Source: an uncultured Geobacteraceae bacterium
GTDB taxonomy: Bacteria > Desulfobacterota > Desulfuromonadia > Geobacterales > Pseudopelobacteraceae
DNA length: 37,409 nucleotides
Direction: 5' to 3'
Assembly (NCBI GenBank): GCA_903930585.1
Contig: CAIYZD010000371.1
Location: forward strand, 1 to 37,409
Below, one piece after another: positions 17,963 through 21,717 of the stretch. A model generated the notes under the pieces. That model was not told where the DNA came from, did no database searches, and worked only from the letters and a program-made list of their open reading frames with translations. The position numbers were made by a program, and so were the translations under genes. Numbering within the stretch: position 1 is the stretch's first letter; each line of letters opens with the position of its first letter.

Positions 17963-17990
17963 TTGACAAGTTTTGAAATAGTATTAAGAT
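17963..17990 (+). promoter_or_regulatory. Sigma-70 promoter for the 20-codon ORF
   Basis: A perfect TTGACA (17963-17968), a 16-base spacer and TAAGAT (17985-17990) lie in AT-rich sequence; a start near 17998 would leave a leader of roughly 45 bases before the short ORF. It is one of the best -35 boxes in the window. Confidence 0.6.
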
Positions 17991-18041
17991 AAAAAACATC
18001 CTGTTAGGAATTAAATAATACGTCGAAAGGAGACCCTGCCA

Positions 18042-18104
18042 ATGTGGACTGCAAGATTTAGAATTCGTCCGGTTTCCCACTGCAAAGAGGGTTGCCCTAG
18101 TTAG
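18042..18104 (+). CDS. 20-residue peptide of unknown function (leader peptide or small protein)
   Basis: This short ORF encodes MWTARFRIRPVSHCKEGCPS. It has a strong ribosome site (GAAAGGAGA, with GGAG nine bases before the ATG) and its own promoter. The peptide has three Arg in an alternating R-x-R-x-R stretch (two on AGA codons), a single Trp, and two Cys spaced C-x3-C near the end; there is no signal peptide or membrane segment. The stop codon's last base starts a GC-rich hairpin, and an intrinsic terminator follows. It could be a translated leader that controls the efflux genes downstream, a free-standing small protein, or the coding part of a dual-function RNA. I do not recognise the family. 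Confidence 0.6.
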   Translation: MWTARFRIRPVSHCKEGCPS

Positions 18105-18127
18105 CCCGCCGCCGGTTGGCCGCGGGC
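18104..18127 (+). other. GC-rich hairpin at the stop codon of the short ORF
   Basis: GCCCGC (18104-18109) pairs with GCGGGC (18122-18127), and inside it GCC (18111-18113) pairs with GGC (18118-18120) around a GGTT loop, with one C-C mismatch. The stem begins at the last base of the TAG stop, so a terminating ribosome would melt it. It is separate from the terminator that follows. Confidence 0.6.
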
Positions 18128-18131
18128 GTCT

Positions 18132-18173
18132 AAAAAAAAGCCTCTCTGTCGTCTGACAGAGGGGCTTTTTTTT
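18132..18173 (+). terminator. Strong intrinsic terminator after the short ORF
   Basis: Eight A's, an 11-base arm (18140-18150), a GTCT loop, the complementary arm (18155-18165, one G-T pair) and eight T's form a nearly perfect palindrome that would work in both directions. It separates the short ORF unit from the macA-like gene. Confidence 0.9.
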
Positions 18174-18201
18174 GTCGCCCGCGCAGTTATTCTGTTATGA
18201 T
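18172..18201 (+). promoter_or_regulatory. Candidate promoter for the MacAB-like operon
   Basis: TTGTCG (18172-18177), an 18-base spacer and TATGAT (18196-18201) lie between the terminator and the macA-like ATG at 18248. If real, the efflux genes need not be read through from the short ORF unit. Confidence 0.4.
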
Positions 18202-18247: not shown

Positions 18248-19498
18248 ATGAAAAAAACCTGTATCGTTTTGACCGTTATCATTCTTATCGGTGGCATTTC
18301 CGGCTATTTCTTTTTAAAACGGACCCCAGAGGTTAGCTACAAGACGGTTAAGGTTGAGCGTGGCACGATTGTTTCGACGGTCGCTGCTACCGGCAATCTT
18401 TCGGCCGTAACTACGGTTCAGGTCGGCACCCAGGTGTCAGGCACGATTCAGAAGCTCTTTGTCGATTACAACTCGCGGGTCAAAAAAGGACAGGCTATTG
18501 CCGAAATCGATCCCGCGCTTTTTAACGCCTCGGTGGAGCAGTCCCAGGGCAACTTCCTGAATGCGGAGGCCAACCTGCAAAAGGCCAGGATTACTCTGGC
18601 TGATGCCGAGAGAACATTTAACCGTAACAAAAAACTTCTGAGCGACGGCATCGTTTCACAAGGTGACTTTGATGCTGCCGAAACCGCTCTCCAGGCGGCT
18701 AAAGCCGGGGTGACTGGTGCGGAAGGGAGTGTCGCCCAGACACGGGGCTCACTGATGCAGGCCAAAACCAACCTGCGCTACTCCATTATCCGTTCACCGG
18801 TCGACGGCGTGATCATATCCCGCGCGATCGACGTCGGGCAGACCGTAGCGGCGTCATTCCAGACCCCGACCCTTTTTACCATTGCTCAGGATCTGACTAA
18901 AATGCAGATCGAAGTCAGCGTAGACGAAGCAGATATCAGCCGTATCCGGCTTCATCAAAAAGCAGGCTTTACCGTTGACTCCTATCCGGAGTTGACTTTC
19001 CGCGGCACGGTTGTTCAGATTCGCACTGCTCCGGTGATCACCCAGAATGTTGTTACCTATGTCGTGGTTGTTACGGTTGATAACAGCGATATGAAACTGA
19101 TGCCGGGAATGACGGCCAATGTGTCGATTGAAGTGGCGAAGAAGGACGGCGTACTCAAACTGTCTCCGGCCGCTTTGCGCTTCAAACCGAAGGCAAAAGG
19201 GGATGATTTGAAAGGTAAGGGTACGGATTCGTCCGCCCAGCGTCCGACGGGTGGGAACAGAGCACCTGGTGGCAAAGGCGCTCCTGCTCCAGGCAGGGAG
19301 AGGAACTCACATCTGTACCTGCTCAGAGAGGGAAAACCGGTCGCAGTCGCGGTAAAAACCGGAATTGCCAACAACAGCAGCATTGAACTGATTGAGAGCG
19401 ACCTCAAGGAAGGGGATGAGGTCATTATCGAGCAGACCGGCGGCGATATGAAGAAAAAGACGGGAGCAGGCGGCTCTCCGATGGGACCACGTTTTTAG
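18248..19498 (+). CDS. MacA-like periplasmic adaptor of an ABC efflux system
   Basis: The 416-residue protein has an N-terminal membrane anchor (MKKTCIVLTVIILIGGISGYFF), a lipoyl/barrel-sandwich half (VQVGTQVSGTIQKLFVDYNSRVKKGQAIAEID), a long helical hairpin (~95-190), the second lipoyl half (IIRSPVDGVIISRAIDVGQTV) and a beta-barrel domain. A Gly/Pro/Lys-rich insert lies near residues 315-355. This is the membrane fusion protein type that joins MacB-like ABC transporters to TolC. The ATG at 18248 is preferred over 18197, which lies in a candidate promoter. Its stop is directly followed by the ATPase ATG. Confidence 0.92.
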   Translation: MKKTCIVLTVIILIGGISGYFFLKRTPEVSYKTVKVERGTIVSTVAATGNLSAVTTVQVGTQVSGTIQKLFVDYNSRVKKGQAIAEIDPALFNASVEQSQGNFLNAEANLQKARITLADAERTFNRNKKLLSDGIVSQGDFDAAETALQAAKAGVTGAEGSVAQTRGSLMQAKTNLRYSIIRSPVDGVIISRAIDVGQTVAASFQTPTLFTIAQDLTKMQIEVSVDEADISRIRLHQKAGFTVDSYPELTFRGTVVQIRTAPVITQNVVTYVVVVTVDNSDMKLMPGMTANVSIEVAKKDGVLKLSPAALRFKPKAKGDDLKGKGTDSSAQRPTGGNRAPGGKGAPAPGRERNSHLYLLREGKPVAVAVKTGIANNSSIELIESDLKEGDEVIIEQTGGDMKKKTGAGGSPMGPRF

Positions 19499-20215
19499 AT
19501 GAACAGTGTCATCTCGTTAACCGATATTCGCCGGGTCTTCAGCATGGGGGACCAGCAGTTCGAAGCGCTCAAGGGGATCTCTTTCGACGTTGCCGCAGGA
19601 GAATTTGTCGCCATTATGGGAGCATCCGGCAGTGGAAAATCAACCTGCATGAATATTCTGGGCTGTCTTGACCTCCCCACCTCCGGCTGCTATCTCCTGG
19701 ATGGTCTGGATGCGGGAGGCATGACCGCCAACCAGCTGGCAGATATCAGAAACAAAAAACTTGGTTTCGTTTTTCAGGGGTTTAACCTGCTGGCGCGCAC
19801 TCCGGCGATTGAAAATGTTGAGCTGCCACTGGTATATGCCGGTTTCCATGCCAAGGAGCGACGCGTGAAAGCCCTGAGCGCGATGGAACAGGTCGGCCTC
19901 TCAGGCAAAGAGAACAACCACCCCAGCCAACTCTCGGGAGGGCAGCAGCAGCGAGTCGCCATTGCCCGTGCCCTGGTCAACAATCCTGCGGTAATTCTGG
20001 CGGATGAGCCGACCGGCAATCTGGACAGCAGCACCAGCGAAGAAATCATGGGGCTGTTCACCGCCCTCAACCGGCAGGGAATCACTATCATTATGGTTAC
20101 TCACGAACATGATGTGGCAGCGTATGCGGGGCGGCAGATAACGTTTAAGGATGGGAAAATTATTAGTGATACGAAGTTGGCGCAAAGTGTTGATGGTGGA
20201 GAGCCCATGTCATGA
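19499..20215 (+). CDS. MacB/LolD-like ABC transporter ATPase
   Basis: A 238-residue ATPase with Walker [11 protein letters not shown], signature [15 protein letters not shown], Walker [13 protein letters not shown] and switch His in MVTHEHD. The DEPTGNLD form marks the MacB/LolD/FtsE group. In E. coli MacB the ATPase and permease are one chain; here they are separate, as in many YknY/YknZ-like systems. It starts one base after the adaptor's stop and overlaps the next gene by ATGA, although that next gene is not the permease. Confidence 0.94.
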
Positions 20216-21717
20216 TCGAAATCACCTCCTTGGAAGATCTTCCCCTCCTGGCAGAGTCCGTTGAAGTCGAATGTAAGCTGGCGGCGGGACAGGATGGGCG
20301 AGGTAAATTACCCGACGATTTTTGGCCCACATACAGTGCTTTTGCAAATACCCATGGCGGACTTGTTGTGCTTGGAGTAAAAGAAAAGCAGGGCAGCTAT
20401 GAGCTGCGAGGAGTGCCGGATGCGGACCGGGTGATTACCGACTTGTTTAATACGCTTAATAATCAGCAAAAGGTCAACGTCAATCTGCTTCGTGATACTG
20501 ATGTACGCAAGCTGGCACTCCACGGTGGGGACATAATACTGCTGGAAATACCTACAGCTGGACGTAAACAGAAACCGGTGTTTCTGAACGGTAATCCCTT
20601 TAACGGCAACACGTATCGCCGTTTGCATGAGGGTGATCGCCACTGCAATGACGAAACCGTCAAGCGCATGCTGGCTGAGCAGGTGGAGGATGTTCTGGAT
20701 CAACGGATCTGCGTTGGTTTCTCGCTGACGGATTTGGACATGGATAGCCTGAACGCATATCGCAACATGCTCCGTGCCGAAAAACCGGGGCATCCCTGGC
20801 TGGCACTGAATGATATGGAATTTTTGCGGATGCTTGGCGGTTGGCGTGAGGATCGCGTGACCGGTGAAAGTGGTATGACTCTGGCTGGGTTACTGATGTT
20901 CGGGCAGTGGGCGTCGATTACCGAGGCGTCGCCGCTCTATTTTGTTGATTATCAGGAACGTCCGGCAGATAGACAATCCGAGACGCGTTGGTTGGATCGT
21001 ATCGTGCCTGATGGAACATGGTCTGGTAATCTGTTTGATTTTTATCGTCGTGTGTCAAAAAAACTGATAGCAGACCTGAAAGTCCCGTTTGTGCTGAAGG
21101 GAGATGTGAGACAAGACGACACGCCTGTGCATCAAGCCTTGCGCGAGGCACTCGTAAATGCGCTGGTGCATGCGAATTACAGTGATCGTGCTTCAACATT
21201 GGTAGTGAAAGAACCTTCCGGTTTTCTGTTCCGAAATCCCGGGTTATTGCGTGTGCCTGCCGAACAAGCCATGCAGGGAGGAGCGAGCGATTGTCGCAAC
21301 CGGACAATGCAACAGATGTTTTTGATGATTGGTCTTGGCGAGAGGGCAGGTTCAGGTTTACCCAAGATTATCCATGGTTGGCAGAAGAACGGCCACTTCC
21401 TGCAACTTCGGGATTCTTTTGAGCCTTACGATCATTCCGTTCTTGAGATGCGTTGGGGTACGAACCAAACCCGCCGAAACGGTGTAAATGACGGTGTAAA
21501 TGACGGTGTAAATGACGGTGTAAATGAAGACGGGCTTGCTGAATACGAGCGCAACCTGCTGGAGCAGATACGACACAACAAGAGTATTACGGCTCGGGAG
21601 CTTGCAGCTGAAACGGGCAAATCTCTCAGCTCAATTGAACGAACAATTCGTAAACTGAAGCTCAAGCACCTGCGGCGGGTCGGTTCAGACAAAACGGGCT
21701 ATTGGGAGGTGCTGTAA
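20212..21717 (+). CDS. AlbA_2/Schlafen-type ATP-binding protein inserted in the efflux operon
   Basis: The 501-residue protein has an N-terminal AlbA_2 (Schlafen-like) domain at about 15-135 (SVEVECKLAAG, FANTHGGLVVLGVKE, NTYRRLHEGDRHCNDE), a GHKL-type ATP-binding domain around 300-385 (LREALVNALVHANYSD as N-box, GLGERAGSGLPKII as G-box), four GVND repeats (424-439) and a C-terminal winged helix (ITARELAAETGKSLSSIERTIRKL). These proteins are annotated as putative transcription regulators or RecG-like, but function is poorly known. It overlaps the ATPase by four bases yet separates it from its permease, so a later insertion is likely. Its base composition looks somewhat more AT-rich than its neighbours. 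Confidence 0.9.
   Translation: MIEITSLEDLPLLAESVEVECKLAAGQDGRGKLPDDFWPTYSAFANTHGGLVVLGVKEKQGSYELRGVPDADRVITDLFNTLNNQQKVNVNLLRDTDVRKLALHGGDIILLEIPTAGRKQKPVFLNGNPFNGNTYRRLHEGDRHCNDETVKRMLAEQVEDVLDQRICVGFSLTDLDMDSLNAYRNMLRAEKPGHPWLALNDMEFLRMLGGWREDRVTGESGMTLAGLLMFGQWASITEASPLYFVDYQERPADRQSETRWLDRIVPDGTWSGNLFDFYRRVSKKLIADLKVPFVLKGDVRQDDTPVHQALREALVNALVHANYSDRASTLVVKEPSGFLFRNPGLLRVPAEQAMQGGASDCRNRTMQQMFLMIGLGERAGSGLPKIIHGWQKNGHFLQLRDSFEPYDHSVLEMRWGTNQTRRNGVNDGVNDGVNDGVNEDGLAEYERNLLEQIRHNKSITARELAAETGKSLSSIERTIRKLKLKHLRRVGSDKTGYWEVL
21481..21528 (+). repeat. Four 12-base tandem repeats inside the AlbA_2 gene
   Basis: GGTGTAAATGAC occurs three times and a fourth copy ends in GAA (21481, 21493, 21505, 21517). 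Each unit encodes GVND/GVNE, so slippage changes linker length between the ATP-binding and winged-helix parts without shifting the frame. Confidence 0.95.

Follow-up and report, generated by a model that had tools for sequence, protein, structure and literature searches.

A conserved micro-gene of the Geobacterales and other phyla encodes a short cysteine peptide with an RNA structure eight nucleotides beyond its Cys-18 codon

The window analysed here is a 37,409-nucleotide stretch of DNA from an uncultured Geobacteraceae bacterium. Its plus strand carries a compact unit between lon, which is encoded on the opposite strand, and a MacA-MacB gene set (Table 1). The TTGACA promoter, ribosome-binding site, 20-codon open reading frame (ORF), hairpin at the stop codon and terminator that an earlier note on this DNA had described were all found where the note had placed them. 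The first base of the hairpin is the G of the TAG stop codon, eight nucleotides after the Cys-18 codon. From the promoter and terminator, we infer a transcript of about 175 nucleotides. The predicted fold of positions 17997–18175 has a z-score of −5.46 relative to shuffled sequences, and none of 200 shuffles was as stable. An inverted repeat, TCCTGTTAGGA, is located close to where the transcript is predicted to begin (17999–18009) and is kept in most of the genus; it is possibly an operator or a 5' stability element.

Table 1. Features of the micro-gene unit and of its downstream neighbour in the window
Feature	Position	Strand	Basis
Micro-gene promoter: TTGACA (17963–17968), 16-nt spacer, TAAGAT (17985–17990)	17963–17990	+	Pattern scan, genus conservation
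5'-leader element ATCCTGTTAGGAATTAAA with short inverted repeat TCCT/AGGA	17998–18015	+	Genus conservation
Ribosome-binding site AAAGGAG	18026–18032	+	Genus conservation
20-codon ORF MWTARFRIRPVSHCKEGCPS; stop TAG at 18102–18104	18042–18104	+	Invariant residues, pN/pS
Cys-18 codon, register point for the downstream RNA structure	18093–18095	+	Unit alignments
Hairpin GCCCGC.GCC/GGC.GCGGGC, 9 pairs, overlapping the stop	18104–18127	+	Fold, covariation
Intrinsic terminator, 20 pairs, 4-nt loop, stem including A- and T-runs	18131–18174	+	Fold, alignments
Separate macA promoter: TTGTCG, 18-nt spacer, extended −10 TGTTATGAT	18172–18201	+	Pattern scan, genus alignment
MacA-like membrane-fusion protein gene, neighbour outside the unit	18248–19498	+	Start by comparison with relatives

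A pattern scan of 3.3 kb identified 11 promoter-like sites, against 3.2 expected, and three terminator-like sites, against 4.2 expected, and it placed the terminator of the micro-gene on the minus strand only. The scan is unconvincing by itself, and the unit was accepted as real because of its conservation. In the alignment of the genus, the −35 element reads TTGAC in all 26 rows and TTGACA in 25 of them. All 26 rows keep the promoter segment GTATTAAGATAAA and the ribosome-binding segment AAAGGAGAC, and 22 keep the leader segment TGTTAGGA. A blastn search found the unit in 56 of the 58 genomes searched, the window's own included, with E-values of 4.4e-11 or lower; the two genomes without a match (G002 and G008) belong to the same genus. 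The earlier note had made its case depend on conservation in relatives, and a covariance model, for which 46 of the 60 loci fetched from the order were used, matched 132 of 141 genomes and all 29 genera of the order, at one to three places per matching genome. The matches are on contigs of Geobacteraceae, Geobacter, Geomonas, Trichlorobacter and Desulfuromonadales; "Geobacterales", and "Bacillota" in "Bacillota-type", are labels given within this analysis. Comparison with these relatives confirms, well beyond chance, that the 210-base stretch holds a genuine gene, absent from the annotation, that encodes a 20-residue cysteine peptide. A gene this small escapes ordinary annotation.

The peptide ends in H-C-K-E-G-C plus two residues. 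In the 60 order loci, which were collected by DNA similarity, so that the CKEGC motif was not preset, pN/pS of codons 1–18 is 0.24 in frame, compared to 2.71 and 1.63 out of frame. This ratio indicates that the peptide is under selection at the protein level. All 60 loci share the residues R9-P10-V11 and C14-K15-E16-G17-C18; the codons of these invariant residues mostly vary, and Cys-18 is encoded by one codon only. The C-x3-C motif singled out by the earlier note is therefore fixed throughout these loci, whereas of its R-x-R-x-R motif only Arg9 is conserved, residues 5 and 7 being variable. A reading of the peptide as a selenoprotein was rejected. UGA was seen in the loci read only as the stop codon after Cys-18 or further downstream, at a position corresponding to a sense codon elsewhere, and an in-frame UGA encoding selenocysteine ahead of a stem-loop, as in selenoproteins with a bacterial SECIS element, was not found in them.

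The hairpin is maintained across the order in a fixed position relative to the Cys-18 codon. In 46 aligned rows, 96.5% of the cells are paired and six of the eight pairs have changed on both sides, which are the compensatory changes that had been named beforehand as support for the hairpin. None of 500 shuffles paired as well, and versions of the stem slid along the alignment were 35–48% paired. Of the 97 order-type units, 96 have GCCC, GCCT or GCTC at positions +8 to +11 from the Cys-18 codon, and base +8 is a G paired with a C in all 46 aligned rows, wherever the stop codon lies. An independent stem finder placed a stem at +8 in 91 of 115 units. The 42 nucleotides after the Cys-18 codon have a z-score below −2 in 99 of these 115 units, a set that takes in at least 10 Bacillota-type units, versus 11 of 150 stop codons of long ORFs taken as controls. 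The hairpin loops vary within the order. The stop codon follows Cys-18 after two codons in 75 of the 97 order-type units and after six or more in 21; in the late-stop units read, TAG is replaced by TGG, CGG or AGG, and translation enters the stem. The overlap of hairpin and stop codon reported in the earlier note is real in the window, but what is conserved is the distance of eight nucleotides from the Cys-18 codon. Because the hairpin keeps its register to Cys-18 and not to the stop, the overlap in the window is a side effect of this register. The accompanying suggestion that ribosome position matters gains support in a sharper form, that of an RNA structure registered to Cys-18. The units combine a conserved nascent C-terminus with a fixed relation to an mRNA element, as expected of regulatory arrest peptides in general.

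The family extends beyond the order. A DNA pattern for [RS]P[VIM]xxCKEGC, in which CKEGC was preset by design, gave at least 119 stretches in named genomes. The micro-ORF is present, among the matches listed, in many Geobacter-like genomes, dozens of Candidatus Omnitrophota, Thermoanaerobacteraceae, Selenomonadales, Ca. Theseobacter and Ca. Wolfebacteria. The matches in Prochlorococcus (L147) and Brenneria (L218) were rejected as chance, since neither genome has a match to a profile of 26 peptides, which were partly drawn from the DNA-pattern set with its preset CKEGC. This profile matched 43 of 145 genomes in the phylum of an Omnitrophota metagenome-assembled genome (MAG), 35 of 299 in the phylum of a Selenomonadales MAG, two of three in one small phylum, and, in the phylum to which the window belongs, 10 of 297, eight of them from the order. 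It matched none of the 299 genomes of Brenneria's phylum, a set without an included positive, at a threshold that gives matches elsewhere. Weak matches of the covariance model within the window's phylum scored 21.5–39.5 bits; of the two that were read, L100 has a terminator and L101 is a real unit. Twelve stretches of viral contigs fit a peptide pattern and none was confirmed, and the single match among plasmids had an E-value of 7. Because the sequences are related, counts across loci do not represent independent events. In Trichlorobacter thiogenes (L342), two units of the order type occur together with a single Bacillota-type unit that has the pseudoknot; the latter is near a gene that is CcdA-like by eye and has no NCBIfam match. 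This arrangement suggests horizontal transfer.

Most family members share the core [YFW]-x-[LI]-R-[PAERQ]-[VIT]-[AST]-[HR]-C-[KRS]-[EDG]-G-[C/H], which is preceded by a free N-terminus of about two to seven residues and followed by a free tail. Cys-18 is replaced by His in L276, L286 and L334; exchange of Cys and His is frequent among metal ligands. Searches of Pfam with two peptides of the family and of NCBIfam with four gave no matches. Rfam 15 gave none in the window at the gathering score, and the eight matches that it returned in five loci were all below that score. No paper came up in literature searches on segments of the peptide core, and broader searches found no recognised description of the peptide, within a coverage that largely leaves out subscription literature.

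Outside the order, the same position after Cys-18 is occupied by a predicted pseudoknot. We compared, without gaps, 95 units that are not of the MW[TI] type of the order, for which the pseudoknot motif was not a criterion of selection. Positions +8 to +10 (GTC) pair with +19 to +21 (GAC) in stem S1, and positions +13 to +17 (GGGCA) pair with +29 to +33 (TGCCC) in stem S2. The order of the strands (S1-5', S2-5', S1-3', S2-3') and a last loop rich in TAAA identify the structure as an H-type pseudoknot. The paired fraction in the 95 units is 0.88 for S1, versus 0.14–0.52 for slid versions, and 0.82 for S2, versus 0.30–0.43, and the number of complete stems was not reached by any of 2000 shuffles for either helix. 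The whole of S1 is exchanged for CTC/GAG in L129, L158 and L235 and for GCC/GGC in L209 and L297. S2 likewise has changes on both sides; it reads GAGCA/TGCTC in L101, for instance, and AGGTA/TACCT in L232. The loop motif starts exactly at +19 in 71 units, in which the stop codon is 0, 2, 4, 6, 8 or 18 codons after Cys-18. The first seven nucleotides past the Cys-18 codon occur in 60 forms in 84 units, a count that includes some order-type units caught by a loose motif.

The pseudoknot is not uniform among the units. Both stems are complete in only 58 of the 95, S1 has only three base pairs, and the structure is predicted from sequence pairing. The first box differs from GTC in 21 units; 15 of these are unpaired there and six are paired, L275 probably by chance. 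Three of the 15 unpaired units (L045, L047 and L176) are of the order type and have the hairpin. Another hairpin is present near the stop codon in L149, L169, L199 and L230, and for L215 none was found. Outside the order type, the 42 nucleotides after Cys-18 are not unusually stable, with z below −2 in six of 86 units. We claim no common origin of the RNA structures, since the hairpin occurs in one clade and the pseudoknot in others. A tandem duplication in L264, L265 and L308 affects the first half of the pseudoknot (GGTCCTGGGCTTAA) and shifts the intact pseudoknot further downstream, which makes these three loci a natural variant of the spacing at the level of sequence.

We propose that the unit is a stand-alone micro-gene whose peptide is made under a programmed ribosome pause at Cys-18, and we give this reading a probability of roughly 0.45. 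The observations on which it draws are the conservation of the unit, the coding of the peptide, the autonomy of the unit from macAB, the fixed register of the RNA structure and the recurrence of stress genes among the neighbours, all from sequence comparison. Structures that stimulate pausing or frameshifting are typically located eight nucleotides beyond the A-site codon. The pause is proposed because an RNA structure is positioned at +8 nucleotides and 13 conserved residues would be in the upper tunnel at the same moment. The hairpin in the window and most of the order, or the small H-type pseudoknot in other phyla, would meet the leading edge of the ribosome during decoding of Cys-18, and the ribosome would pause with the residues [YFW]-x-[LI]-R-P-V-[AST]-[HR]-C-K-E-G-C in the upper exit tunnel. 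The His/Cys-x3-Cys end is a likely contact for a thiophilic metal, NO or an oxidant, made either by the nascent chain as a sensor or by the released peptide. The pause may serve sensing, as in an arrest peptide, or the maturation of the released peptide. If the structure pauses ribosomes at one Cys codon, it would offer a clean natural case of a peptide and an RNA acting jointly on the ribosome. The unit may also sense metals or NO through its nascent chain, without the leader-operon arrangement that is usual for such devices. Of the three options listed in the earlier note, a leader of the MacAB-like genes, a dual-function small RNA and a free-standing small protein, the last fits best.

Tentatively, the units may constitute a previously undescribed cross-phylum family of autonomous translational-pause micro-genes, which would combine 13 residues ending in HCKEGC, an RNA roadblock at +8 nucleotides and a nascent-chain sensor of thiophilic metals, NO or oxidants, and in which hairpin and H-type pseudoknot would be two RNA solutions for one geometry. 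H-type pseudoknots that stimulate frameshifting or pausing are compact and have an A-rich last loop, and these pseudoknots, or hairpins with the same effect, are located 5–9 nucleotides after the decoded codon. The micro-gene units resemble them in having a compact pseudoknot with an A-rich last loop, or a stem-loop. A difference is that we noticed neither a slippery sequence nor a second frame in them and that their structure comes after a micro-ORF has ended.

The neighbouring genes were compared using ORFs called with a simple ORF finder, and most were named from their first residues or from one scanned member of a cluster, some below the curated cut-off. Of 40 loci fetched with the peptide profile, three lack the core pattern; the other 37 comprise 34 from the phylum of the Selenomonadales MAG and three others. 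A P-type ATPase of more than 700 residues, belonging to one cluster, is encoded no more than three ORFs away, upstream or downstream, in 11 of the 37, several of which are close relatives. That of L310 exceeds the cut-off of TIGR01511 (copper-translocating), and all three loci with His in place of Cys-18 adjoin such an ATPase gene. In 59 other loci, which include two chance matches, two Geobacterales loci and one place counted twice, two ORFs upstream and three downstream were considered. The clusters comprise an Rrf2 regulator at 25 loci, an Fe-S ATPase/ferredoxin at 13, Hcp at 10, a superoxide-reductase-like protein at six, a thiol-peroxidase-like protein at five, a CusA/CzcA-like protein at four, and a Cu/Zn-efflux-like protein, below the curated cut-off, at five. 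The link to stress genes concerns a minority of the loci in each group, and no stress-gene theme was apparent among the scanned neighbours of the solitary copies of the order. Together with the His/Cys ends of the peptide, neighbours such as CopA, CusA, Rrf2 and Hcp point to thiophilic-metal, redox or NO stress, with a thiophilic metal, NO or an oxidant as signal or cargo. The palindrome GATAC-N7-GTATC is present within 160 nucleotides upstream in 26 of the 59 loci. In the Omnitrophota loci (L121–L231), a promoter with this palindrome precedes the micro-ORF and, in many of them, the Rrf2 gene, and the palindrome looks like the operator of that Rrf2 regulator.

These neighbours also bear on an alternative in which the unit is a cis-acting sensor leader, where metal- or redox-dependent stalling or release of an arrest peptide sets the expression of the next gene (copA, rrf2 or hcp), on the model of CruR and copper. 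Such a leader would account for the conserved C-terminal stretch between a variable N-terminus and tail, and for an RNA structure at the front of the ribosome. Many Omnitrophota ORFs do precede an Rrf2 gene, mostly by 31–58 nucleotides, behind the palindromic promoter, and a copA-type gene is located 213–424 nucleotides downstream on the same strand at eight loci. Against this, no downstream gene is common to the loci, and a constant cis target is absent: of the 26 order loci that lack MacA downstream, 13 have the next ORF found on the opposite strand. The ATPase gene is divergent in L331 and L334, Rrf2 is upstream and not downstream in L159, and a terminator is located inside the unit in the order. 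We consider this alternative unlikely, while giving it appreciable weight.

The closest known device in its working is CruR (DUF2946), a copper-responsive upstream ORF of Bordetella that heads an operon and contains CXXC and RAPP motifs (PMC9426467). CruR has about 140 residues or more, with RAPP at 139–142. The likeness includes a cysteine motif in the nascent chain, a link to copper genes, a long intergenic gap after the ORF and a switch proposed to act by ribosome stalling. Unlike CruR, the micro-gene encodes 18–27 residues, has a CxxxC motif and no RAPP, and has an RNA structure at +8 nucleotides; unlike the head of an operon, it is often without a downstream gene on the same strand. Membership in CruR/DUF2946 was rejected, as the peptide has no DUF2946 match, its motif is CxxxC and not CXXC, RAPP is lacking, and there is no fixed operon. 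In RAPP-type and Sec/YidC arrest peptides, conserved C-terminal residues are reported to act inside the tunnel and the N-terminus is free to vary, as it is in the micro-gene peptides (PMC10987492, PMC7897499, PMC10951233). The motifs RAPP, RGPP and RAGP are absent from the peptides of the family, and among the clustered neighbours we noticed no gene for protein localisation, in contrast to these arrest peptides.

A plain metal- or thiol-binding micropeptide produced in large amounts, the 3' structure of which serves mRNA stability or termination without any pause, would agree with the strong ribosome-binding site, the promoter and terminator of the unit, the H-C-x3-C/H ends, and the copper and redox neighbours. 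It leaves unexplained why the distance from the structure to Cys-18 is fixed while the stop codon shifts over 0–8 codons, and we regard it as improbable.

A further alternative is a leader of the MacAB-like genes. MacA is encoded by the next downstream gene in 34 of the 60 order loci, about 70–215 nucleotides after the stop codon. In the other 26, no MacA gene is downstream, and the unit is also present in other phyla. Within the genus, L016, L020 and L061 keep the unit without macA downstream; L020 retains both lon and the unit, and L061 has a MacB-ATPase-like ORF 592 nucleotides upstream on the other strand. All 23 genus rows that contain macA have an extended −10 element, TCTGnTA, between the terminator and that gene; over all rows the count is 24 of 26. 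The gene regulated by an attenuator is on the transcript of its leader, and from the strong terminator and the macA promoter beyond it, macAB would not be on the transcript of the unit. Short attenuator leader peptides such as TnaC and ErmCL combine a short ORF, a hairpin and a terminator, as does the micro-gene. They differ from it in that the unit is autonomous, has its own terminator and has no constant target gene. Attenuation through pairing of the 3' arm of the hairpin with the terminator was rejected, since about 4 bp are possible, as judged by eye in the alignments, versus the 20 bp of the terminator. The leader or attenuator of MacAB-like genes considered in the earlier note was rejected because of the separate macA promoter and the loci without macA, and we leave it a very small probability; judged from gene order and signals, the unit is autonomous from macAB.

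A dual-function small RNA, with base-pairing to target mRNAs as its second activity, would be in line with a short, structured and often solitary unit present in one to three copies per matching genome. Selection acts on the peptide and the hairpin loops vary within the order, both of which argue against it, and we give this possibility hardly any credence. The short conserved cysteine peptide could also be thought of as a RiPP precursor that is later modified, for instance by the GeoRSP radical-SAM system, the name of which derives from this bacterial group, but GeoRSP_rSAM (TIGR04303) exceeds its cut-off in three of 50 genomes, 34 of the 50 being peptide carriers, and we find a precursor barely credible. 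The GeoRSP maturase was rejected as a partner because it is not co-distributed with the peptide: the three genomes are peptide carriers of the order, and the window's own genome is not among them.

Two further observations concern the genes around the unit. An ORF of about 193–211 codons is located on the minus strand between lon and the micro-gene in 17 relatives (among L003–L022, L057 and L058); the copy in L011 has no Pfam match, and no such ORF was called at the window's locus. In the window, a gene for a Schlafen/AlbA_2-type protein of 501 residues with a winged-helix end according to Pfam (20212–21717, plus strand) separates the MacB-like ATPase gene from the MacB-like permease gene. The ATPase and permease genes are adjacent where both were called, the permease gene being reached in 15 relatives.
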